Shown: one piece after another, positions 1-22,479 of the stretch
Position numbering within the stretch: the stretch's first letter is position 1
Layout of the letters: the number at the start of each line of letters is the position of its first letter
Virus record (IMG/VR): IMGVR_UViG_3300017753_000124
Coordinates: 1 to 22,479 of that record
Direction: 5' to 3' (one strand)
Length of the DNA stretch: 22,479 nt
DNA from: a virus
Notes under the pieces: model-generated
What the model saw: the letters and a program-made list of their open reading frames with translations, nothing else
The model's database searches: none
Told to the model about the DNA's origin: nothing
Program-made: the position numbers and the translations under genes

Positions 1-169
1 AAAGCAACATGATGATAGAGAAAAAAACTATATTGAAGTTATGTTGTCAAGTGGTGGTAGTTTAAGTTACGAAGATGTAATGAATATGCCAGTTCCTGCA
101 ATTCAGCTTTTTGTTGAAGTTATTAACAAAAGAGCAGAAGATCAGAAGGCATCATCCCGTAGGCGCTAG
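1..169 (+). CDS. 3' fragment of a gene, possibly a gp26-like baseplate hub assembly protein
   Basis: The reading frame starting at base 2 is open to a TAG at 167-169, giving the last 55 residues of a protein whose start lies left of the window. The fragment is charged and looks helical, with a segment SYEDVMNMPVPAIQLFVEVI followed by a basic Ser/Arg tail. An 'MP' followed by a helix and a charged tail recalls, by eye only, the C-termini of T4 gp26-type baseplate hub assembly proteins. That assignment is a guess. Its stop overlaps the stop of the convergent minus-strand gene: the palindrome CTAG at 166-169 gives TAG on both strands. No terminator hairpin is visible at the junction, so transcripts from the two sides probably run into each other. 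Confidence 0.5.
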   Translation, partial: KQHDDREKNYIEVMLSSGGSLSYEDVMNMPVPAIQLFVEVINKRAEDQKASSRRR

Positions 170-603
170 CCTACGATTGATTTATAATAATCTTCTGGCC
201 AACTATCGTAATAAGATGTACTGTGTAAGTAAGCACGTTTTTCTTCAAGATCCCCACGCAATTGTATAAACACACAATCCTGGAAATTTTTAGCAAAGTG
301 TCCACTATCTTTTGTACTAATAAAATATAATAATTCTGGATTTTCTTTATGCATGACTTCAAGCATATCTGGAATACTATCTACATCATTCCCTTCAATC
401 CACGCAATACCTATTTCGTATTTGGTGTCATCAAACTCTCGAAATTTTTCTAAAGATAAATCTCTGGCATCAATAAATTGTATTTTGCCTTGTAACCTAG
501 CCTTACGGGCAAATGGGCAAATAGGAAATCCGCTATCTCTTTTTGCTTCGATAACGTTAATAGTCCAGTCTATAAACTGTTCTTGGAATTGTTCAAATGT
601 CAT
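166..603 (-). CDS. Hypothetical protein with a CPFA motif, under a late promoter
   Basis: I do not recognise this protein with confidence. The frame can be extended to a TTG at 631-633, but the ATG at 601-603 is preferred, giving 145 residues. The TTG sits in the loop of a hairpin and has no ribosome site, while a weak GAGTG lies about 11 bases before the ATG. The protein is soluble and acidic, without signal peptide or membrane segment. It has a CPFA motif at residues 29-32 followed by basic residues, a middle with several acidic stretches, and a Tyr/Trp-rich end (SYYDSWPEDYY). The N-terminal W...CPFA layout faintly recalls the DUF1415 family, too weakly to name it. It is transcribed leftward, opposite to the baseplate genes, from its own TATAAATA late promoter. 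Product made late in infection; role unknown. Confidence 0.75.
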   Translation of the reverse strand: MTFEQFQEQFIDWTINVIEAKRDSGFPICPFARKARLQGKIQFIDARDLSLEKFREFDDTKYEIGIAWIEGNDVDSIPDMLEVMHKENPELLYFISTKDSGHFAKNFQDCVFIQLRGDLEEKRAYLHSTSYYDSWPEDYYKSIVG

Positions 604-625
604 GGTATTTTTTTCACTCAGAAGG

Positions 626-641
626 ATCACCAAATGGTGAT
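626..641 (-). other. Hairpin near the 5' end of the late transcript for the 166-603 gene
   Basis: ATCACC at 626-631 and GGTGAT at 636-641 form a perfect 6-bp stem with a 4-base loop. If transcription starts about 6 bases after the TATAAATA box at 650-657 (near 644), this stem-loop begins about 3 bases into the mRNA, ahead of the ATG at 603. There is no U-tract on either strand, so it is not a terminator. A 5' stem-loop of this kind could stabilise the message. The structure is read by eye; its position relative to the start is inferred. Confidence 0.45.
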
Positions 642-649
642 GTTATAGT

Positions 650-657
650 TATTTATA
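650..657 (-). promoter_or_regulatory. T4-type late promoter, TATAAATA
   Basis: The minus strand reads TATAAATA, an exact match to the T4 late -10 element recognised by the gp55 sigma factor, which needs no -35 box. It points at the gene ending at 166, with a predicted leader of about 40 bases. gp55 is encoded in this window, and two relatives of this box (GCTAAATA at 5547-5554, GATAAATA at 12434-12441) share the TAAATA core. Confidence 0.65.
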
Positions 658-667
658 AGTCCTTAAT

Positions 668-684
668 AATGCTCTTCGAGCATT
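668..684. repeat. Inverted repeat upstream of the late promoter
   Basis: AATGCTC (668-674) and GAGCATT (678-684) make a 7-bp stem with a three-base loop, a compact terminator-like hairpin. It is followed by AAAACTTCTT on the plus strand and ATTATTAAGG on the minus strand, so neither side has a proper U-tract. It could end leftward readthrough from the gp55-gp46 operon, but that is weakly supported. A second small stem, AAAGC/GCTTT at 695-708, lies beside it. Confidence 0.35.
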
Positions 685-739
685 AAAACTTCTTAAAGCT
701 ATCGCTTTACTCGTTTTGAATTGTTTACATTAATAGTAT

Positions 740-1220
740 CGAATTTTTTTTATGGTTTAATAATAATGAATGGAATAAATTATTTTTAACTTTAACCTGA
801 AGTTTAATCACACTATGCCTGGTTACGGCATAGCATGAAGAAACAAATAGACTTTAACCGTCATTATCACCCACATCACAGTAACAAACCTTAAAGGGGA
901 GGCGGTTGAGCTGTACCTCTATTACATGTTGCTTTTTCAGCACGGGTATCGATATGTAGCCACTGTGACGACAGCATATCACCCATCAAGTTCCAAGTGT
1001 CAGGAGAGCTTGATCATTTTGTAAACTGTTTCCAGATTACCAACTATTGAGACAATACAAACGTTTCTTACACAAAGGGTAGACGTTTAAGCATCCTGCG
1101 ACTAACAGGGTAGTGTATTGAATTAGGCCACCAGAATAGCCCTTGCTTACCGTCACACATCAGAACGGATTCAGCGACACAATTATAGCCGGCGTGTCAA
1201 CCTTATGCTGGTTTATTTTT
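740..1220 (+). ncRNA. Candidate structured non-coding RNA of unknown family (boundaries approximate)
   Basis: Within the 609 bases from 604 to 1212 I see no convincing gene on either strand, which is unusual in so compact a genome. By my count 901-1200 is about 44% G+C, higher than the flanking genes. Inverted repeats follow one another: 813-819/827-833 (7 bp), 985-990/1009-1014 (6 bp with three further inner pairs), 1059-1064/1083-1088 (6 bp), 1093-1098/1106-1111 (6 bp), 1150-1153/1165-1168 (4 bp), and a terminal pseudoknot. The 1093-1111 stem and the pseudoknot contain G-U pairs that would be A-C mismatches on the other strand, favouring a plus-strand RNA. No tRNA, tmRNA, RNase P or group I intron signature was recognised. 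The 5' end is unknown; TTTACA at 724-729 is only a weak -35 candidate. Confidence 0.4.
1176..1220 (+). terminator. Potential H-type pseudoknot followed by a U-rich tract
   Basis: Stem 1 pairs GACAC (1176-1180) with GTGTC (1194-1198). Stem 2 pairs AGCCGGC (1187-1193) with GCTGGTT (1207-1213), with two G-U pairs. The stems interleave with no base between 1193 and 1194, a 6-base first loop and an 8-base last loop, which is workable H-type geometry. Stem 2 alone, followed by TATTTTT (1214-1220), also reads as an intrinsic terminator for a plus-strand transcript. The two stems could also be alternatives. The U-tract overlaps the antisense of the last codons of the GIY-YIG gene. Confidence 0.4.
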
Positions 1221-1650
1221 GAGAATTGTGTTGGAAAGATTCTTTTAGAGCTTTTGATCCGCCTACACGGACGTTTATAATGCCATTGTAATAGTCATCT
1301 GTTAGTAATACTTCTCTATCAAACTGTTCTTTTGCTTCTAAGTATGATAATTGGCCTCTGGTGGTACAATAATATAATATTTGTTTTGTGAATTTTTGTT
1401 CGCCTAAGTTTTTTATATCTTCTAGTAAGTGTTCCGATGAGCCCCAATAATCGCGCCAATCACTTTCAACAGTGGATCTGCGTTTACGTTTTTTGCCTTT
1501 TAGCGGTGGTTTTGTTTTTTTGAATTGCCCGAGCTTTTTGCCAATGTATTTTTTGCCATTAATAGTATTTGTGATTAGATAGACGAATCCTATACAACCT
1601 TCCGGAAGTTGCTGTACTTCTTTGCCTTCATAAGTCCATGGAGTCGTCAT
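1213..1650 (-). CDS. GIY-YIG family endonuclease (free-standing, Seg-like)
   Basis: This 145-residue protein carries the GIY-YIG nuclease fold. GFVYLI is at residues 21-26 with YIGKK at 35-39, the expected spacing of the two tyrosine-bearing motifs. A Lys/Arg-rich stretch at about 44-59 probably contacts DNA. WRDYWGSS is at about 65-72, followed by a helical segment with the likely catalytic glutamate at E105 (YLEAKEQ) and conserved-looking asparagines near 122-126. The family cuts DNA using a divalent metal; in T4-like phages such genes are often free-standing homing endonucleases of the Seg type. Whether this one homes or has a DNA-processing role is unknown. It starts at the ATG at 1648-1650, inside the end of the upstream small gene (23-base overlap), with only a poor ribosome site, so it is probably translationally coupled. 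It is the last gene of the leftward operon. Confidence 0.85.
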   Translation of the reverse strand: MTTPWTYEGKEVQQLPEGCIGFVYLITNTINGKKYIGKKLGQFKKTKPPLKGKKRKRRSTVESDWRDYWGSSEHLLEDIKNLGEQKFTKQILYYCTTRGQLSYLEAKEQFDREVLLTDDYYNGIINVRVGGSKALKESFQHNSQK

Positions 1651-1819
1651 CTAATAGTTTATTGATTTTTATCGCAATGTCAACACTTAATTTTTTACCT
1701 GTGGTGTCAACTGGTGTTGGTACAAGCTGTCTCATACCTGGTGGGTCTCCTTGCCGGCGCTTGTATATTTTTTCGCCAACTCTTTCGTAAATATAATCTT
1801 GCTTATTATTAAGCGTCAA
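1628..1819 (-). CDS. Small conserved-type protein of unknown function (TTG start)
   Basis: A 63-residue basic-to-neutral protein lying between gp46 and the GIY-YIG gene. No alternative ATG lies near the 5' end. The TTG at 1817-1819 follows a strong purine-rich site (GAGGTGGAG) by four bases, supporting it as the start. It overlaps the end of gp46 by 11 bases and the start of the endonuclease by 23, so the three are locked into one operon. The N-terminal half is charged (YERVGEKIYKRRQGDPPGMR), the middle has a proline-threonine turn (VPTPVDTTGKK), and the end is a short acidic helix. No family recognised. The tight overlaps on both sides make it a real gene rather than a chance frame. Confidence 0.7.
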   Translation of the reverse strand: MTLNNKQDYIYERVGEKIYKRRQGDPPGMRQLVPTPVDTTGKKLSVDIAIKINKLLDDDSMDL

Positions 1820-3584
1820 CTATCTCCACCTCAGTATTATAAGTTGTAAATCCGTTTTCCTTTACAACCTGTAATACACTGTTTACCCGTCCAACAAGTT
1901 CGTCGCGATGCGAGATAAGCAGGATATTTTTATCACGCTCTCTCTCCATTTTTTTAAGTACACCTAACGCACTTTCAACTCCGATAGTATCCATGCCGCT
2001 ATCAACAAGTTCGTCAATACAAACCAAGTTAATAGGATGATTCATACTTTCAAATACATCACGAAATGCCCAACTAAGTCCTAGTATAAGTCTGTTGCGC
2101 TCACCACGTGATAAGTTATCAAAGTCTAAGTCTTGTCCAAGTTGGACAATACTAACTGTTAAGTCACTTTGGAATTGCACTTCGTGTGGCAACCCAAGTT
2201 TAGTAATGTAATACTCTAAACGATTGTTAAGGAATTGTAGGTTCTGTTCAATAATCTTTTTGCGAATAAAACTATCTTTGTTTGTTAATAGTTTTAGCAA
2301 AAATTCCTGATGATCTTTTAACTCTGTAAGTCTGTTAACTTCTTCCCACTGTACTTCTTGTAGTCCAGTTTCTTTGAGTGTTTTAATTTGATCAACATAT
2401 GGATTCTCTTCTACTTTTTTAGACTCTAAAGTAGTGTTGTTTGAATCTATTTTACTTTGATGCTCATATGCTTCTTTGATTGTATTATAATGCAAAGAAG
2501 GAGCCGCCCCAAGTCCCCCTAATTCGTTTAATGCTTCTCTATATTCATTTATCTGATCAGTGTCAGAAGTAATGTGTCTTACTGACTCTTCTACTAATTC
2601 TGTCTTTTGTGCTACAATCTTTTCGTGTTGATCATCATGTAGCTCTTGTCCACATGCATAACATTTGTGTTGTAGCGTAGTATCTAAGTCTTTTTGTGCT
2701 TTATCTAAACGCTTTTGTTCACGCTCGATGCCAGTAGTAAGTTTAGCAATCTCGCTGTTTAACACGTCTATTTGTGTACGCTTATTGTTAAATTCTTCAA
2801 ACTCAGCATGTGCTTTAAGTTCTTTTTCAATGTCAACTGAATTTAAGTTTACATTTTCACGTTCTAGATATTCAATATCTGATTGTAGTTTTTCCTGCCA
2901 AGTACGCTCACGCCGCTCCAAGTCAGAAATACTTTTTTCAATACGTTGATTTGCTTCTTCAATACCTTTAATACGATATGTTTCTTCTTGAATACTATCT
3001 TTACTATACTTTACAAGCTCTTTTAAAATATCAGCTTTTTCACTAAGTTGTGTAATACCTAGTAATTGTTCAATCATTTCACGCTGATCATTTGCTCGCA
3101 TGCTCAAGAAAGGTTCAGTATAAGTGTTCAGTGCCACAACATGCTTAAACATTGTGTGGCTCATCCCTAATACTTTTTCGATAGCATGTTGGCTAAGTTT
3201 ACCTTCTCCCTGCATTTCGTCAGTAATATCATCAGAACTGTCAATATTATTAACCATGTATTTGAAAACATTTGGTTTGCGTCCTCGCTCAATACGATAC
3301 TCCATACCATCTTTTTCAAACTCAACAGTAACTAACATCTGTTTATTGTTAGTTTTATTGATTAGATTATCTTTTTTAATGTTATATAATGCATTACCAA
3401 ACAATGCAAAGCTCAGTGCATTAACAATAGTAGTTTTACCTGTACCATTACGTGAACCATCGCCACCCAAATCAATATTGTTACCCAACACAAGTGTGAG
3501 CCCATGATTATCAAAGTGTACAGCCTGTGTTACATTGCCAAAACTCATAAAGTTTTTAACAGATATATTTTTTATTTTCAGCAT
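1809..3584 (-). CDS. gp46: gp46 recombination endonuclease subunit (Rad50/SbcC-type ATPase)
   Basis: With gp47 this forms the phage Mre11-Rad50 complex, which resects DNA ends to start recombination-dependent replication and helps degrade host DNA. The 591 residues hold the whole SMC-like plan: a Walker A motif in GSRNGTGKTT (residues 43-52), coiled-coil arms at about 185-305 and 315-450, a zinc-hook CYAC at 308-311 between them, the ABC signature LSRGE at 491-495, Walker B NLVCIDE at 519-525, a D-loop DSGMD, and the switch histidine in ISHR at 557-560. The length is close to T4 gp46 (about 560). It starts at the ATG at 3582-3584, one base after the gp47 stop, so translation is probably coupled. 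All key motifs look intact. Confidence 0.97.
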   Translation of the reverse strand: MLKIKNISVKNFMSFGNVTQAVHFDNHGLTLVLGNNIDLGGDGSRNGTGKTTIVNALSFALFGNALYNIKKDNLINKTNNKQMLVTVEFEKDGMEYRIERGRKPNVFKYMVNNIDSSDDITDEMQGEGKLSQHAIEKVLGMSHTMFKHVVALNTYTEPFLSMRANDQREMIEQLLGITQLSEKADILKELVKYSKDSIQEETYRIKGIEEANQRIEKSISDLERRERTWQEKLQSDIEYLERENVNLNSVDIEKELKAHAEFEEFNNKRTQIDVLNSEIAKLTTGIEREQKRLDKAQKDLDTTLQHKCYACGQELHDDQHEKIVAQKTELVEESVRHITSDTDQINEYREALNELGGLGAAPSLHYNTIKEAYEHQSKIDSNNTTLESKKVEENPYVDQIKTLKETGLQEVQWEEVNRLTELKDHQEFLLKLLTNKDSFIRKKIIEQNLQFLNNRLEYYITKLGLPHEVQFQSDLTVSIVQLGQDLDFDNLSRGERNRLILGLSWAFRDVFESMNHPINLVCIDELVDSGMDTIGVESALGVLKKMERERDKNILLISHRDELVGRVNSVLQVVKENGFTTYNTEVEIVDA

Positions 3585-3585
3585 A

Positions 3586-4608
3586 TTAATTTAAACCATT
3601 ATAGATGGAGATAAGAACTTCATTTTTGACAACCTCGCTGTCAATAGTAGTAAGTTGATTAAGTACAATTTGATCTACATTTTCTACTTCTATCTCTGCA
3701 CCCTTACTCCAGTCTTGTGCGTGTTCTTCTTTTTTACTAGGCAACAAACTTATCTCTCTCAAATCATATTGCTTTAAGAAAGTTTCCTTGATAAAATTTG
3801 CCTCTTCGTAAGTAATACCTACATCAAGGGTAATCCTACAGTGTGTTTTATTCGACAATACTTCTTCAGGATTGTCAATCAATTTAGATAAATTTAGTGT
3901 TCTATACTTTGGAGCATCTGGCCAATTTACAAACTCAGGCTCTTGTCTCCATTTCAAAAATGTAATACCACGATCGTCATCCCATGCATCAGCATAGTTG
4001 TGTGGAAAACAATTTCCTGGATAAATGATATTTCCGCGAGTTTGTCTTTTATGAAAGTGTCCACTAAAAACTTTTTCAGCTTTACGCAAATCGTCTGGCT
4101 TTAATCCATGTCCATGATCTGGCATTTGTACCATCGCATTCATAAAGAAGTGTGGTAGCTCAAAATGTCCAAATATATATTTGACATTGAGTTCTTTTAA
4201 TTTTTTATGTTCATCTTCTACAAGCCATGGAACAAATGCACAATCATCTTCAACTAACATTCCATCATTAATCATTCTAATGTTAGGATATTTGTCAACC
4301 ATTGGAACACTGTGTATTTCTCGCTTTTCTCGATAATACAAATCATGGTTTCCTGTAATCATAATAACTTCATCAAATGAGTCATTTAATCGTTGTAAAT
4401 TACTGGTTGTATAATTTAGTGTACTAACATTGATGCTGGCACGATTATGATGCCAATCACCTAAAAAGAGACATTTTTTAATGTTTCTTTTCTTTGCTTC
4501 TTCTATCATCCAAATGATAAATTCTTCACAATCAATGTTGTGAATTCGTGAGTTATTTTTCATACCGAAATGAATATCGGTAAAGATTACTGCTTCATCA
4601 AATAACAT
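3586..4608 (-). CDS. gp47: gp47 recombination endonuclease subunit (Mre11/SbcD-type nuclease)
   Basis: This is the metal-dependent nuclease partner of gp46. The 340 residues match T4 gp47 (about 339) and keep the calcineurin-like phosphoesterase motifs: DIH at 11-13, GDWHH at 50-54, GNHD at 86-89, GHFE at 147-150 and GHFHKR at 183-188. These supply the two-metal site and the catalytic histidine. The region after about 230 is probably the capping and gp46-binding part. It lies 7 bases downstream of the gp55 stop and one base upstream of gp46, so the two subunits are co-transcribed and probably made in step. Nothing is missing or out of place. Confidence 0.97.
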   Translation of the reverse strand: MLFDEAVIFTDIHFGMKNNSRIHNIDCEEFIIWMIEEAKKRNIKKCLFLGDWHHNRASINVSTLNYTTSNLQRLNDSFDEVIMITGNHDLYYREKREIHSVPMVDKYPNIRMINDGMLVEDDCAFVPWLVEDEHKKLKELNVKYIFGHFELPHFFMNAMVQMPDHGHGLKPDDLRKAEKVFSGHFHKRQTRGNIIYPGNCFPHNYADAWDDDRGITFLKWRQEPEFVNWPDAPKYRTLNLSKLIDNPEEVLSNKTHCRITLDVGITYEEANFIKETFLKQYDLREISLLPSKKEEHAQDWSKGAEIEVENVDQIVLNQLTTIDSEVVKNEVLISIYNGLN

Positions 4609-4615
4609 GTTTTAA

Positions 4616-5479
4616 CTATGTGTCCTTGGTATCTTCTTCAGTTTCAGGGGGTTTTTCAGATTTTAAACGCTCTTCCCATTCAGCATTAAATGTACGGGTA
4701 AAGCTAGGGTTTAATCCGCCTTCTTCCAACAAATCATCTCTAATGTTCTGTCCTCTTTTTTCTAGATTGAGAACTCTAGTAAAGCTGTTGTTTATAGCGG
4801 CAGTATAATATGCAAATGGATTTTGCGACTTAACTTCGTTAAATTGTAAACCAATTTGTGTTAATTGTAACAATGCTTGTCCACGCATTTCATCTACATA
4901 TGTGTAACCTCGCCAGTTACTTTTCATGCTATACCTATGGCATAACATCATATACATTCTTGCCAAACGATCATTTGTAGTACCATGTGATACACTAAAA
5001 TGTCCGTTACCAAGTCCACCTTCCCAATGACTACGTGCTACTTCTTTCCATTCGTCCTTTACTTTAGCAATATGCTTAAAGGGAGGAAAGTTGCACTTAG
5101 CATGTCTGTCTGCTTCTGTCTTTGGATTAGTTTTTCTTTGCTCTTCTGGAACATGATCAAATGTCATAATCCTAATTACAATTTCTTCATCAAGTATTGT
5201 TGCGGGATCAACAACAAAATCAGCACCTCTAGGTTTGGTTTTACGCTCAAGTTCTCCACGTTCCCATTTTTTAACCTGTTCTTCATGTGCTAATTTTTGC
5301 ATTCTAGATGCACGATTTTGCTTTGCCTCTGCAATATGCTCGTCAGTTATCTCCTGATCCTCTTCCAAAATTAGGTCGAAGTAGTGATATTTGTCGTCCA
5401 TTACATAACAATAGCTCATTTTGCTGTTGTGTATCTCTTTTAATAACTCTTTATTAGATAGATAGTGATTTCTTGCCAT
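4616..5479 (-). CDS. gp55: gp55 sigma factor for late transcription (enlarged)
   Basis: A divergent sigma70-family factor that redirects host RNA polymerase to TATAAATA-type late promoters. Two blocks match T4 gp55. The N-terminus (YLSNKELLKEIHNSK, residues 6-20) resembles T4 YVNNKELLQAI. Residues about 168-250, a sigma region 2-like helical block with SNWRGYTYVDEMRGQAL and QNPFAYYTAAINNSF, match T4 FNFSGYTQSWKQEMI and KNPHAYITQ. The protein is 287 residues against 185 in T4. Most of the extra length is a charged insert at about 25-160. The C-terminus is acidic (ETEEDTKDT) and does not show the SLDFLYE-like clamp-binding end of T4 gp55. The start is ATG 5477-5479, after a good AGAGGA site at 5487-5492. 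It is the first gene of the leftward operon. Confidence 0.88.
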   Translation of the reverse strand: MARNHYLSNKELLKEIHNSKMSYCYVMDDKYHYFDLILEEDQEITDEHIAEAKQNRASRMQKLAHEEQVKKWERGELERKTKPRGADFVVDPATILDEEIVIRIMTFDHVPEEQRKTNPKTEADRHAKCNFPPFKHIAKVKDEWKEVARSHWEGGLGNGHFSVSHGTTNDRLARMYMMLCHRYSMKSNWRGYTYVDEMRGQALLQLTQIGLQFNEVKSQNPFAYYTAAINNSFTRVLNLEKRGQNIRDDLLEEGGLNPSFTRTFNAEWEERLKSEKPPETEEDTKDT

Positions 5480-15913: not shown

Positions 15914-18900
15914 ATGAGCAAGTATAAAAGTAATAAGCCAACTACACCAGGTAGGAAAAAACGTGCAGGTAGCTATAAGGGTACTGAAATTAAAAGTAGT
16001 GACTTTTTACCAAGTGTTTTCCAAACTAACGTAAATAAATCATGGCTTAATGCAACCTTTGATCAAATGATTAGTAAATCAGATCTTAAAGATATTGATG
16101 AGCTAGTTGGTACAAGGGATGGCAGATACTTTGATAAAAATGACATTTATATGACAACATCTGAACATGATGTACGTGGTGTAAAGCAATTTGAACCAGC
16201 AATTGTAAGTAGAGACAAATCAAAAAATCTAACTAACCTTATAGGCATAGACGATATTTCAAACTCTATAAATGTTGATTTTGATCAATATAATTATAAT
16301 GCCGCTTACCAAACTCGTGCTTCAACATTCTTACCACCGATTGATGTTGATAAATTTATTAACTATGGACAATATTATTGGATAGAAAACTTACCAGTAT
16401 ATGAAAGTTTTAATACAAATATCACATATACAAACGTTGTAAGTGAAATTAATGGTGAGATTGAATATACATTCAAAGACGATGAGAATGAGTTCCCGTT
16501 AATGGATGGTATGATTATAGAATTTACCGCAGGTTATGGACAATGGGATGGCTGGCAGTTCTTAGTAACTGGTGTTGGTGATTTTATTAAATTAAGACCA
16601 TATAGATCTAACACAGGAAAAAATGAATGGAACGCACTTACATCTTACAATGGTGCAATACGAGGATACTGGGACAAGGGTGATGTTAAGCTATATGAGC
16701 GAGGTGCTATTTCTCAAGACTTATGGGATTATATTAAAGACCACAATGCAAATAAAACATTACCATTATTAAAACTTAGAGATACTGGATTAGTTAAAAA
16801 AATAAATCCTGATGGCACATCTGTAAATGGTGTAGACACATATATTAGCGGCAGAGTAATTGCTCGCTTTGATGAAGATTGGAACTTTCAAAACAGCACA
16901 GGATCATATCCTTTTGCTAAAAACTTCCAGCCTTCTAATTTAGATGAATATAAAGTGTTTATTATTGATACAGACACAGATGGTGATATTGAAGTTACAT
17001 GTATTATTGACGCAAGGCTAACTTCTAATAATGAAATAGAACAATTTATTCCAAGCAACATTAATAAAGAGTTTGCAATGATTGCAGAGAATTTAGAAAA
17101 CTATGACATCATTGGTTGGGACAACGACTTTAAACTTAATTCTGAAAAAGATTATATTGTTATTGACAGAGCAGACCCAATTGCAAGTGCATGGAGTCGT
17201 GTTAATATGTGGATACACAAAGAAGCATTATTCACTATTGCAGCAATGACAAATACATCAGACCAATATCTACTAAACAGAAAAGATTTTCAAGCCAAAC
17301 GTCCTATTATTGAATTTAATAAAAACATGTGGCTAACAAATCACGGCTATAGTGAATACAAATATGACTTTGTATGGCAGGGTAATATTGATTTTATTAT
17401 GTTAAGTAAAACAGTCGCAGAGACAGAACTTTCTGTAGGAACAACATTTGTTGTGGTTGGTGACGATAAAGTTTATGAAGTAACTGCAACAGGTAGTCAA
17501 GTAAATGCCACACTTACAGCTGGTGACACAATGTTTATTATGTCAGGCGGCATACAGTCGCTTGTTGACAAATATCAATACCAAGACGTATGGTTCACTG
17601 AAGATGGTGAATTTATGGTTGCGCAAAAAAAGAAGCGTGTAAACTTTGCACCTTACTTTAAGTTGTATGATGAAGATCAAACTTTATTATCAGACACAAA
17701 CAAATACCCTAACAGTACTGATAGAGGAAGTAAAATATTTGGATACAAACCTGGTACAGGTAAAAAGGATCCAGAGTTAAATTTTGCATTAACATATCAA
17801 GATACTGGATTTAAGGCAGAGATTGTATTTGAGAATTTTTTAGATAATACAGAAGTTACATACAGCAAAACATTATCTTCAGGAAGCCAATTGGCTGTAC
17901 AAAGTAATATACCTGGATACTATTATTACAAACAAGGCATACATTATAAGTCAAATTATCAGACAAGTTATAAGCCTATTGGATCTTTAACTGATTACCA
18001 AGTTGTTGTTAGTGACCCAAGTGTTGCATTAGAAATTCCAGTAGGTAGTGACTCATGGGAAACAAATAAAGAATTCTTATTTTATGAAGCAGACGATTGT
18101 TTTGCAGTACGTGAGCTTTATATGAAAGGTATATATCATGATTATGGATACCTAAAGCCACAGCTTATTATGCAACGAAATAAAAAATATGAATTCCATG
18201 ATCTAGTTGGCGATTTAGAAATATATGATAAAGATTATAATGTTGAAACAAACTACACAACAATTAGTTTAACAGCACCATATACATATGACATTGAGTT
18301 TGACTCAAACGCAAATGATTATTATTACTATGGTTGTCCTCATTTAGGCACTGGAAGAATTATTGTTGTTGATGATATTAATCAAGTATATCATAAACTT
18401 TATATTGATGGTAAATTTGTACCATGCAGTAAGTATACCATTACAAACAACCAAATTATTGTGCCAAGCACATTATTAGAAACTGATAGTGTAGTTGATG
18501 TACAATATTATACAAGTGAACTTCGTTACACATTGGATACTGAAATTCCAGAAGTACACAAGCACAATGCTACAAACGAAACTATTGATACTTTTACATT
18601 CAGTGAAACATTGGATCACTGGAAAAGCATTATTGAAAGTGCAGTAGAGTTTGACGGGCAAGGCGATGGTAATAATAACTCACACCGCAAGTTCAGTGTA
18701 CAAACAAATGGCGGTACAATATTTAGACATGATGATATTAGTGTAATGCAAGACATTACATTAAGTGAAGATTCATTAAATGTATCAGCTGGGCTAGTTG
18801 AACAAGGTAGAGAATGGGATAACTTTAAACAAAGATTTATTGCTCAAGTTAAAAAATTATATAAACAACAAAGTTGGTCAAGCGTTAAAGACATTGTAAA

Positions 18901-21900
18901 CCAAGCGGTTGATAATATCACAGTTACACGCAAAGGCACATTACTGCATGCAGATAGTAATATGATATACACTGGAGAAGAAAACTTTGATCGTATCGAA
19001 CTTACAGGTAACAACCAAACTTTTACAACCAAATTTACATTTAACTCGGATAGAACTAAACAAGATCATTATTACATATATCTAACAGATGATAAAAATG
19101 GTCTAGGATATATGACTACTCGAATTTTACATAAAGATTCAGACTACACAGTTAACGGAAGTGAAATTACTTTACTAGTAAATGCAATAGAAATACCAAG
19201 CCAACTTCCATACGTAACAGTTTACTATCACGAAATGGACAAAGTAAGTCACGTACCTGCAAGTATGACAAAACTTGGATTAGAATTTCCAAGATTTATC
19301 CATATTGACAACGGCAAGTTTGTAGGACATGATGGTGCAATGATGCAAGTAGGTAATCAAAACTTTGACTTGTATAATATGAATAGCCAAACTTTTGATC
19401 CAGTAGTTGCATGTTTATGGGATCTTGAAACAAGAATTTATAATAACCTTGCTGAAACAGAACATTATATTTCAGCAAACAAATACTTACCAAGTCAACA
19501 CAGAGACACCTGGTATACACTAAACGATGTTAATAACTCTATGGAAAAATATTTCCGTAAATGGATGAACAAGAATAATATCTGGAATATTGATAAAGAA
19601 GATGAATATGATCCTGCAAATTCAAATACTTGGAATTATAATTCAATGGACTTGCATGGACACATGGAGCACCTTACAGGAAATAAACTGCCAGGATCGT
19701 GGCAAGGAAATTACATCATCTTATTCGGTACAGAGCGTCCAGATTGTATGCCTTGGATAATACTAGGCTTTGCTTGGAAGCCAGCTTGGTGGGATGACCA
19801 TTATAGTTGGACTGATCCAATCAAACGTGCTAGCTTAATAGAAGCACTAAGAACTGGACAACAAAAAATGATCTGGCATAACTTAGGTGTGTCAGAACAA
19901 AGTGTAGCACATGCTCGTTATTATTGGGATTGGGACAATCATTGTCCAGTTAAAACAGACGGCACATTAGAGGATCCAGAAGTTGTACTAGGTACACCAG
20001 ATCCTATTGATGCCGCAGTACCATTTGAGTGGGGAGACTATGGTTACATCGAAAGACGTTGGAGACATAGTGGTGAAGGTATTGGCGCATTAGTTGGTTC
20101 AATTGTTAAACTAAACAGAACAAAGGCGTGGACAGACTTCTTCCAACCAGGGTTTATTGTAGACAAACACAGCTTAGTGAACAACAAAAGAATATCTCCT
20201 AGTGCATTACATTACCATGGCGGATTATATGGAGAGACAGTTAAGTCTATTAACGTAATTGATAGCTCAACAGGGTTAGGTACAAATAGCACAGTAGATA
20301 TCATATCACCTGCAAGTTCATTAGGCGCATCAGCAATAGCAAATGTTAATGCTTCTGGAGAACTTACACATGTTTCATTAACAACCAGAGGTAATAACTT
20401 TGATCAGGATGCAGCCAAACATGTTGAGAATGTTGGCGGGCAAACGTTTAGTTATGCAAATGTTGATATGGTAAAGCAAGTTATACCTTTCCATGCTAAT
20501 GGTATTAATGTAACACAATTAAATAAAATTAAAAGAAATAATGAGAGCATTGACTTAGAGCAACTATACAAAAGTATAGACACACAGTTGCTAATTAAAA
20601 TGGGCGGCTTTACTGATAAGTCATTATTAAACATTCAAACTGAGAGTGGTATAAGCGGCGCATTTAAAATTAATGACAATGATTATGAGATTGTATTACT
20701 TGAAGGTAAACCAACAAGAGTAGATGTAGCAAGCCAAATTTACATTGAAAAATTAAGTCAAGGTTTCCGTATAAAAGGTATCAGTAACGCACAACAGCGT
20801 TTTACTTTTAATGAGCCACTTATACAAGGTGCTAATGCATACAAAAATCTAAAGCTAGATAACAACGGTGTAGTTAGACAATATACCAAGCACAGTGCAA
20901 AAGAAAGTTATATTGAATATGGTGCAGTACTTTCAAGAGTACAAGACACATATAATTTTATTAGAGGCTATGATCACTATTTAAAATCAAGAGGTGTACT
21001 AGCAACAAACGATATTGGTAGCTCTGCATTTGGCTTTGCAAATTGGACAACACATGCACAGATTGGCGAAGTATATATTATTGACATCGGTTCAGGTGTT
21101 GGTTACCAATCAGACCATGGACACATTTTAGAATTTGGTGCTGCTCCAGAACATCAAAACGAATTATTAGACCCGCAAGGTAAAAAGATTGAAGCTGACG
21201 ATTTAAGAGTAGTTAGAACTGAAAACCAACTTAGAGCGATTACAGCTGATGGCAGTTTAATAGGCTCAGCAGGATTTTCAGAAGTAGATTACGAACATGG
21301 ATTGTTACTGTCAAATAAAACACAGTTTAACAGTACTATTTTTGATGACATTTCAAATGTTAGACATCAACGCTTACACATTAAAGGCAAGCGTACAGAT
21401 GGCTGGAAAGGTCATAAATCTGCAAAAGGATATATCGTAAAATCAAATGGAATTAATCCAAACTTTGATTCTAGTGTTAACCAAATAGACTACTATTATA
21501 AAACAGATATTAAAATTGACAATAGCGACATTAGTAAAATGGAAAAACTTACTAACGGAAATATTGATAGGGACTGGAGCAAAGGATTTAATTTAAGCGA
21601 CAATGTATTAAGTAACTTCTATCGCGAAATGATTAAAGACAGAGGTACTACTGGTATTGCAACAAAGCTGAATCGTAGTACATTAATTAATTTAGGAAAC
21701 AGTAACCTTACTACCAAAGAAGAATGGATGTTTAGAAATGGTTACATGGGTGATCCAACAAGAAGAAAAACAACAGAGATTGAATTAAAAAGATCTAACA
21801 ATGCAAGTGACATTAGACTGATTGACTTCTTTAATGATTCACCAGTTTATGTAAACAATGAGATACAAGTAGACTTTCCAAAAGTTACAATGGAAAAACA

Positions 21901-22479
21901 ATACCCAATGTTTGCGGGTGATTGTCTAGAAACAGAAGTTGATTACGTAGTACCAAAACTTCCTGATTTAGATACACTATATGATTCATTAGCAGACTAT
22001 GCTAACATTCCAACATGGAATGGTACTACTAGTTACAAACGTGGCGACAGAGTTAGACGTAACGGTATGTTACTAAAATGTAATACTAACTTTATTGGAT
22101 ATACAAGTGAAGTTTCAAACAATGACCAGACAGGTAGTGTAAGTAACCCAACATTTAGCTTCCGTCAAAGTGGAACACCTAGTGCAGTTATTGATGGTGT
22201 AAGTGTTTACTTCAATAAAACTACAACATTGTATAGTGCAATTGCTGTAACTGGATCAAATCAATCAGTACAAAGTCCTAAAACATTAAACATTGACAAT
22301 ACATCAGTTAGCTTAGTAGTAACATCACAACAACAAATTATTGATACAACACAACCGTTTTCAGGTAACCCACATGTAAATTCAAATGCGTTAGGTACTG
22401 GTACAGTTATCGTTGACAATTATGGAAAAACTTTAGAGATTGAAGGCACAACAATTAACCTTTGGGATCCAGCAGATGA
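15914..22479 (+). CDS. Giant baseplate/tail structural protein in the gp7 position (3' end outside window)
   Basis: From the ATG at 15914, preceded by AAGGT, the frame stays open through the last base, giving at least 2188 residues and no stop. It begins MSKYKSNKPTTPGRKKRAGS, then SSDFLPSVFQTNVNKSWLNATFDQMISK at about 29-56. FLPPIDVDKFINYGQYYWIENLPVY lies near residues 139-163, and a RVNFAPYFKLYDEDQTLL block near 575. A Trp-rich segment with MPWIILGFAWKPAWWDDHYSW lies near 1280. Near 2035-2060, WNGTTSYKRGDRVRRNGMLLKC is like the short aromatic carbohydrate-binding modules (YxxGDxV). I recall similar very large proteins in marine T4-like phages, where gp7 is expected after gp6. T4 gp7 has 1032 residues, so this is over twice that. 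Function inferred: outer wedge scaffold, perhaps with glycan contacts. Confidence 0.75.
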   Translation, partial: MSKYKSNKPTTPGRKKRAGSYKGTEIKSSDFLPSVFQTNVNKSWLNATFDQMISKSDLKDIDELVGTRDGRYFDKNDIYMTTSEHDVRGVKQFEPAIVSRDKSKNLTNLIGIDDISNSINVDFDQYNYNAAYQTRASTFLPPIDVDKFINYGQYYWIENLPVYESFNTNITYTNVVSEINGEIEYTFKDDENEFPLMDGMIIEFTAGYGQWDGWQFLVTGVGDFIKLRPYRSNTGKNEWNALTSYNGAIRGYWDKGDVKLYERGAISQDLWDYIKDHNANKTLPLLKLRDTGLVKKINPDGTSVNGVDTYISGRVIARFDEDWNFQNSTGSYPFAKNFQPSNLDEYKVFIIDTDTDGDIEVTCIIDARLTSNNEIEQFIPSNINKEFAMIAENLENYDIIGWDNDFKLNSEKDYIVIDRADPIASAWSRVNMWIHKEALFTIAAMTNTSDQYLLNRKDFQAKRPIIEFNKNMWLTNHGYSEYKYDFVWQGNIDFIMLSKTVAETELSVGTTFVVVGDDKVYEVTATGSQVNATLTAGDTMFIMSGGIQSLVDKYQYQDVWFTEDGEFMVAQKKKRVNFAPYFKLYDEDQTLLSDTNKYPNSTDRGSKIFGYKPGTGKKDPELNFALTYQDTGFKAEIVFENFLDNTEVTYSKTLSSGSQLAVQSNIPGYYYYKQGIHYKSNYQTSYKPIGSLTDYQVVVSDPSVALEIPVGSDSWETNKEFLFYEADDCFAVRELYMKGIYHDYGYLKPQLIMQRNKKYEFHDLVGDLEIYDKDYNVETNYTTISLTAPYTYDIEFDSNANDYYYYGCPHLGTGRIIVVDDINQVYHKLYIDGKFVPCSKYTITNNQIIVPSTLLETDSVVDVQYYTSELRYTLDTEIPEVHKHNATNETIDTFTFSETLDHWKSIIESAVEFDGQGDGNNNSHRKFSVQTNGGTIFRHDDISVMQDITLSEDSLNVSAGLVEQGREWDNFKQRFIAQVKKLYKQQSWSSVKDIVNQAVDNITVTRKGTLLHADSNMIYTGEENFDRIELTGNNQTFTTKFTFNSDRTKQDHYYIYLTDDKNGLGYMTTRILHKDSDYTVNGSEITLLVNAIEIPSQLPYVTVYYHEMDKVSHVPASMTKLGLEFPRFIHIDNGKFVGHDGAMMQVGNQNFDLYNMNSQTFDPVVACLWDLETRIYNNLAETEHYISANKYLPSQHRDTWYTLNDVNNSMEKYFRKWMNKNNIWNIDKEDEYDPANSNTWNYNSMDLHGHMEHLTGNKLPGSWQGNYIILFGTERPDCMPWIILGFAWKPAWWDDHYSWTDPIKRASLIEALRTGQQKMIWHNLGVSEQSVAHARYYWDWDNHCPVKTDGTLEDPEVVLGTPDPIDAAVPFEWGDYGYIERRWRHSGEGIGALVGSIVKLNRTKAWTDFFQPGFIVDKHSLVNNKRISPSALHYHGGLYGETVKSINVIDSSTGLGTNSTVDIISPASSLGASAIANVNASGELTHVSLTTRGNNFDQDAAKHVENVGGQTFSYANVDMVKQVIPFHANGINVTQLNKIKRNNESIDLEQLYKSIDTQLLIKMGGFTDKSLLNIQTESGISGAFKINDNDYEIVLLEGKPTRVDVASQIYIEKLSQGFRIKGISNAQQRFTFNEPLIQGANAYKNLKLDNNGVVRQYTKHSAKESYIEYGAVLSRVQDTYNFIRGYDHYLKSRGVLATNDIGSSAFGFANWTTHAQIGEVYIIDIGSGVGYQSDHGHILEFGAAPEHQNELLDPQGKKIEADDLRVVRTENQLRAITADGSLIGSAGFSEVDYEHGLLLSNKTQFNSTIFDDISNVRHQRLHIKGKRTDGWKGHKSAKGYIVKSNGINPNFDSSVNQIDYYYKTDIKIDNSDISKMEKLTNGNIDRDWSKGFNLSDNVLSNFYREMIKDRGTTGIATKLNRSTLINLGNSNLTTKEEWMFRNGYMGDPTRRKTTEIELKRSNNASDIRLIDFFNDSPVYVNNEIQVDFPKVTMEKQYPMFAGDCLETEVDYVVPKLPDLDTLYDSLADYANIPTWNGTTSYKRGDRVRRNGMLLKCNTNFIGYTSEVSNNDQTGSVSNPTFSFRQSGTPSAVIDGVSVYFNKTTTLYSAIAVTGSNQSVQSPKTLNIDNTSVSLVVTSQQQIIDTTQPFSGNPHVNSNALGTGTVIVDNYGKTLEIEGTTINLWDPAD

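Follow-up and report, generated by a model that had tools for sequence, protein, structure and literature searches.

As judged from the comparison of related sequences, the long gap (positions 604 to 1212) in the viral window analysed here, that is, the whole stretch of 22,479 bases from the IMG/VR virus record IMGVR_UViG_3300017753_000124 (positions 1 to 22,479), encodes a genuine structured RNA on the minus strand, which is conserved in relatives and is probably a free-standing, trans-acting molecule of ~350-550 nt. In agreement with a preliminary description made from the letters of the window, the gap holds no convincing gene, its longest internal frame being of 42 amino acids, and its segment 901-1200 has a G+C content of 44.3% compared to 35.4% in the whole window, with only 0.7% of the 300-nt windows being as high. 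The genes and the promoter match around the gap were as follows:

4616-5479, minus strand: gene of a T4-type late sigma factor
3586-4608, minus strand: gp47
1809-3584, minus strand: gp46/SbcC-like gene (phrog_77), used as the syntenic anchor
1213-1650, minus strand: gene of a SegE-like GIY-YIG endonuclease of 145 amino acids (PF19835, 122 bits)
650-657, minus strand: TATAAATA, a sequence match to a T4-type late promoter, 5′ of gene 166-633
166-633, minus strand: gene without assigned function, 155 amino acids, ATG at 603 (phrog_10325, weak)

The product of gene 166-633 had no match in Pfam, and neither a tRNA nor a tmRNA was found in the window with ARAGORN. In a search with gp46 and its neighbours, the order sigma factor, gp47, gp46, GIY-YIG gene (not always present), gap and 166-633 homologue was found on one strand in many contigs, with a nucleotide identity of ~60-86% in the gap among syntenic relatives. 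Moreover, the RNA appeared 3′ of gp46 in every relative whose contig extends that far, and over a hundred related large bacterial viruses carry it. According to gp46, gp47 and the sigma factor, the closest cultured relatives are jumbo phages, namely the PA5oct-type Pseudomonas phages, Phosso and Atu_ph07.

The RNA was resolved into the following elements:

661-1212, minus strand: whole conserved RNA element of ~550 nt, running 5′ to 3′ from 1212 to 661, syntenic and alignable in gp46 relatives
1050-1203, minus strand: 5′ domain, a diverged Polynucleobacter-1 (RF01718), from cmscan and from alignment A3 with RF01718-positive loci
868-1020, minus strand: conserved core with a pseudoknot, in no Rfam family, from the R1 match and the pair counts
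985-1014, minus strand: core hairpin H1, with arms 985-993 and 1006-1014 (A1 columns 8-12/33-37)
962-968, minus strand: 5′ arm of the pseudoknot, TCACAGT on that strand (A1 columns 58-64), partner of 876-882
898-920, minus strand: most conserved motif, GGUACAGC..AACCGCC, closed by AGAGG/CCUC (A1 columns 110-132)
876-882, minus strand: 3′ arm of the pseudoknot, ACTGTGA on that strand, partner of 962-968
802-844, minus strand: 3′ hairpin, clade consensus CACUUGGCC...GGCUAAGUGUGA, following the core in every clade aligned
667-717, minus strand: terminal two-hairpin module, with 11 pairs showing several pair types among relatives

The structure is supported by covariation in the core. Alignment A1, comprising 29 core sequences, was made by sequence only, and the structure was written by inspecting it. 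The nine helices of the core, including the pseudoknot, comprise 36 pairs, which were 96.8% paired in A1; changes on both sides were seen in 27 of these pairs, and the covariation score was 0.603 compared to 0.230 (sd 0.012) in shuffled alignments, none of 500 reaching it, while sliding the partners by 1-3 columns gave at most 0.112. In particular, H1 was 100% paired with both-side changes in four of its five pairs, the pseudoknot (up to 7 bp) was 98.8% paired with six pairs changed on both sides, and the motif at 898-920 showed such changes in all five of its pairs. A second alignment of 87 diverse sequences (A2), which leans towards the structure because it was fitted to the covariance model, was 90.5% paired, with both-side changes in 31 of 32 pairs and a covariation of 0.700 vs. 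0.205 after shuffling (0 of 500), the slid controls reaching 0.152 at most. Furthermore, the covariance model R1 matched the window at 868-1020 on the minus strand only (124.2 bits, E 2.3e−28). Beyond the core, the 3′ hairpin was of the type CACUUGGCC...GGCUAAGUGYGA across clades, and the terminal module, whose first hairpin has GA/GAA internal-loop steps, was kept in most of them.

The single-sequence evidence of the preliminary description was insufficient by itself, and the proof is comparative. The inverted repeats that it had listed are present (11 pairs, H1, the pseudoknot arms and the 3′ hairpin among them), but not beyond chance when folding was set against shuffles, as the minimum free energy of 780-1220 had z-scores of −1.18 on the plus strand and −1.50 on the minus strand, and about 10 out of 100 shuffles folded equally well. 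On the other hand, the compensatory changes in homologues that it had proposed as a check were overwhelmingly present. The plus-strand orientation, taken from the G-U pairs of two stems, proved wrong. The stem at 1093-1111 is real, with compensatory variants in relatives (CCTATC/GATAGG in L072, CCACT/AGTGG in L022 and CCCCAA/TTGGGG in L240), but its plus-strand G-U signal amounts to one position and is outweighed. The stem at 1187-1213 does have G-U pairs on the plus strand, where it resembles a terminator hairpin with a T-rich tail, but it lies outside the conserved structure. Read on the minus strand, the core pairs contained 218 G-U vs. 54 A-C cells in the 87 sequences, and 67 vs. 11 in the 29 sequences; moreover, consensus folding was more favourable on the minus than on the plus strand both in the clade of the window (−180 vs. 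−146 kcal/mol) and in another clade (−181 vs. −167 kcal/mol). Because the RNA is on the minus strand, the same as the gp46/gp47 operon, it does not lie on the antisense side of the operon as had been described, and an antisense role was set aside. The element also reaches further to the left than reported, to about 661.

A covariance search against Rfam, which had also been proposed, gave no credible match on the whole window and nine relatives; however, with the segment 600-1215 alone (616 bases), cmscan matched RF01718 at 1050-1203 on the minus strand with 22.1 bits (E 0.012). Since this score is below the gathering cut-off of the family (37 bits), the window is taken as a relative sharing the domain and not as a filed member of RF01718. 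Beyond this match, neither a group I intron nor any other catalogued RNA was found at the window in Rfam. The 5′ domain contains the elements AAUCCGUUCUGAUGUGUGACGGU, CACUACCC...GGAUG and the closing stem CAAUAC/GUAUUG, thus presenting the same consensus blocks (CACUAYCC...GGAYG) and closing stem as RF01718. In addition, AAUCCGUUCUGAUGUGUGACGGUA was common to the window, L206 and L240, with one difference in L121. Thus, the element described earlier as a candidate new phage RNA is indeed a structured non-coding RNA of phages that had not been listed as such, but it is not wholly new, as a diverged form of a known family makes up its 5′ domain.

RF01718 appears to cover only the first third, at the 5′ end, of a larger RNA that is encoded mostly by phages. 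In L240, it was found directly 5′ of the core with 44.9 bits, and in L184, L195, L174 and L207 immediately 5′ of the core with 85-91 bits. Matches above the cut-off were found in 11 out of 30 records, with 45-91 bits in syntenic relatives (90.6 at best), although this co-occurrence is not independent, since the records were chosen largely for carrying the core. An independent case was seen from the opposite side: a bacterial genome of a Burkholderiales family, one of 401 genomes, was found by RF01718 alone (92.3 bits) and harboured the core ~50 nt 3′ of that match (62.2 bits, E 1.5e−13), so that RF01718 is read as the 5′ part of the larger RNA. The Rfam model, 141 positions long, ends before the pseudoknotted core, the 3′ hairpin and the terminal module. 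On the other hand, the commonest marine clades have a different 5′ domain, which RF01718 does not recognize. In a bacterial contig (L448), the RNA was flanked by a DUF6641 gene on one side and a gene of a 2Fe-2S oxidoreductase on the other, with no obvious phage operon around it.

This relationship bears directly on how the RNA may act. Polynucleobacter-1 was listed in 2010 as probably an RNA and probably cis-regulatory, from freshwater or estuary Burkholderiales, Table 1 giving 'y' for RNA, 'y' for cis-regulation and '?' for switch (Weinberg et al. 2010, PMC2864571), whereas the RNA found here is mainly phage-encoded and behaves as free-standing. A riboswitch or other leader that regulates the downstream gene in cis, as that entry of Table 1 would have it (PMC2864571), agrees with the clade of the window, where gene 166-633 has the same orientation as the core and follows it at a distance of 235 nt. 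However, the downstream genes vary by clade, and when the nearest ORF of at least 110 amino acids was taken mechanically as the neighbour, the downstream one was on the same strand in 40 loci and on the opposite strand in 30, that is, in 30 of 70 loci a cis-regulatory placement was not found; 21 loci had the upstream ORF on the opposite strand. Unlike a riboswitch or 5′ UTR element, the RNA therefore does not precede any single conserved gene or pathway. Furthermore, L174, L184, L195 and L191 have an opposite-strand downstream ORF and yet keep the 3′ hairpin. As this hairpin and the terminal module are retained where the next gene is convergent, both are considered part of the RNA and not a leader. 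Finally, in the clade of the window, a match to a T4-type late promoter lies between the core and the gene that follows, and such matches were also found 3′ of the core in relatives. A leader acting in cis is thus unlikely.

The independent reading in trans, which is preferred here, rests on the varied downstream strand, on predicted promoters of its own and on the late promoter match before the next gene. A sigma-70-type box (TTGAC-N16-18-TA) was found 5′ of the RNA in 24 out of 83 loci compared to 0.68 expected, a count that does not represent independent cases because the promoter-bearing members, chiefly of two clades, are related. Examples of the predicted promoters were TTGACA-N17-TATACT (L057) and TTGAC-N17-TATAT (L198). 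In at least these two clades, the RNA would thus form its own transcription unit from a host-type sigma-70 promoter, for which reason it is probably transcribed early in infection, while in the clade of the window the gene after the RNA would be served by a T4-type late promoter. In the window itself, no good minus-strand promoter was found beside the RNA, which could therefore be produced there as the 3′ end of the transcript of the gp46 operon. It is nevertheless quite improbable that the RNA serves generally as a 3′ UTR or as a processing or stability element of the gp46 and GIY-YIG operon transcript. It does always lie 3′ of gp46 and on its strand where both were seen, but the GIY-YIG gene may lie on that strand or on the other, and one clade has a divergent GIY-YIG gene between gp46 and the RNA, together with a predicted promoter of the RNA; the copies in Atu_ph07 and in the bacterial genome are located elsewhere.

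The adjacent endonuclease might suggest that the RNA is its guide or scaffold, or else a mobile intron-like remnant, given that a SegE-type gene adjoins the RNA in most loci. This was judged very unlikely, as no adjacent gene was detected in L023, L028, L030, L034, L036, L049 and L072-L077, the gene flips strand where present, and no intron family matched. Structure, strand, conservation and independence from any one neighbour gene were established by sequence comparison, while the free-standing RNA acting in trans is the reading that these features make probable.

Regarding its distribution, R1 found the core in 73 out of 76 sources, the other three (L002, L050 and L062) being contigs that end before it. 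Moreover, of 79 loci that were obtained by a pattern search of viral contigs and searched with the core model, 66 had the core at E <0.1, with gp46 identities down to about 46-58%. Strong core matches appeared once per contig, in contigs of ~96-330 kb. This single copy, in a conserved place beside gp46 and gp47, would also suit an RNA that serves the replication of phage DNA as origin or primer, in the manner of ColE1 RNAII; such a role has very little probability, however, as the cultured Agrobacterium phage Atu_ph07, the sole positive among the isolates tested, has two copies, which like the bacterial copy lie away from gp46:

490092-490271, minus strand: Atu_ph07 copy 1, 41.1 bits, in a stretch without annotated genes
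383276-383476, minus strand: Atu_ph07 copy 2, 20.2 bits, in a stretch without annotated genes

Both copies have long identical stretches in common, and the replacements in their stems occur in pairs. The second one lies within a region of ~2.2 kb that carries no gene annotation (L412 / MF403008 382155-384353). The terms noncoding, non-coding, ncRNA, Rfam and intergenic are all absent from the main text of the article on the isolation of Atu_ph07 (PMC6102473). This phage, with its two unannotated copies, offers a cultured system in which the function could be tested directly.

Among the other isolates, R2 gave no match in T4, S-PM2, P-SSM2, KVP40, HTVC008M, phiM12, BF and 121Q at E values up to 5, nor in PA5oct and Phosso up to 1, and blastn of the window and three relatives against isolated phages found short chance matches or nothing. 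With the filters off, a match of 13.7 bits was seen in PA5oct (L408 8687-8866, record ~76336-76515), on the correct strand and 3′ of gp46, where it overlaps a very short CDS of the annotation; it may be a strongly diverged copy. In Phosso, a gene-free, structured-looking stretch of ~1 kb lies 3′ of gp46 (L409 8410-9425, record ~229758-230773), in which the model had no match. In bacterial genomes, the pattern GGTACMGCNNAACCGCC was found in at least 119 stretches, which were taken as chance for a pattern of ~14 specified bases in 257 Gb.

As to what the RNA does in trans, the invariant internal loops (GGUACMGC..AACCGCC and GCUCU...AAC) may provide a surface for binding, and the RNA could scaffold or sequester a protein or a ribosome-type complex, in the general manner of GOLLD and ROOL or of 6S-like RNAs. 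This is a best guess, based on these loops and on the comparison with GOLLD and ROOL (PMC12286853). Like GOLLD, the RNA is large and ornate, is encoded by phages and is conserved in its 3′ part but variable in its 5′ part (PMC12286853); however, it is shorter and adjoins gp46. ROOL (Rumen-Originating, Ornate, Large) is likewise a large, pseudoknotted RNA of phages and prophages without known function (PMC12286853), but it has another neighbourhood. The Rfam models of both gave no match up to E 5, nor up to E 10 on the segment, and both are often found near tRNA islands, in contrast to the tRNA-free window. A further, widespread class of large 'ornate' phage RNA, the third after these two, in which a pseudoknotted core common to all members is joined to a modular 5′ domain that can be exchanged, acting early as an RNA-only or RNP particle or as a catalyst that takes over a host machine, is a doubtful extension of this guess.

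The core and most of the RNA beyond the end of RF01718 were not recognized in the databases and literature searched, and the open-licence PMC literature yielded no account of the core, of the association with phages or of a reading in trans. A truncated and little-noticed Rfam entry thereby becomes the end piece of a far larger RNA of large marine and freshwater phages, its likely mode of action is corrected from cis to trans, and the large structured phage RNAs that lack a known task gain one more well-defined case, whose structure is explicit and supported by covariation. Across the aligned clades, the RNA is ~350-550 nt long, and its 5′ domain, which is RF01718-like here, takes other folds in other clades.

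At the far end of the window, a frame of more than 2188 amino acids (15914-22477, plus strand) runs off the sequence. In the leader 5′ of the core, L005, L009, L060 and L066 present runs of CTAAYA with a spacing of ~11 nt, while the clade of L198 has RGGCAAAC repeats instead.
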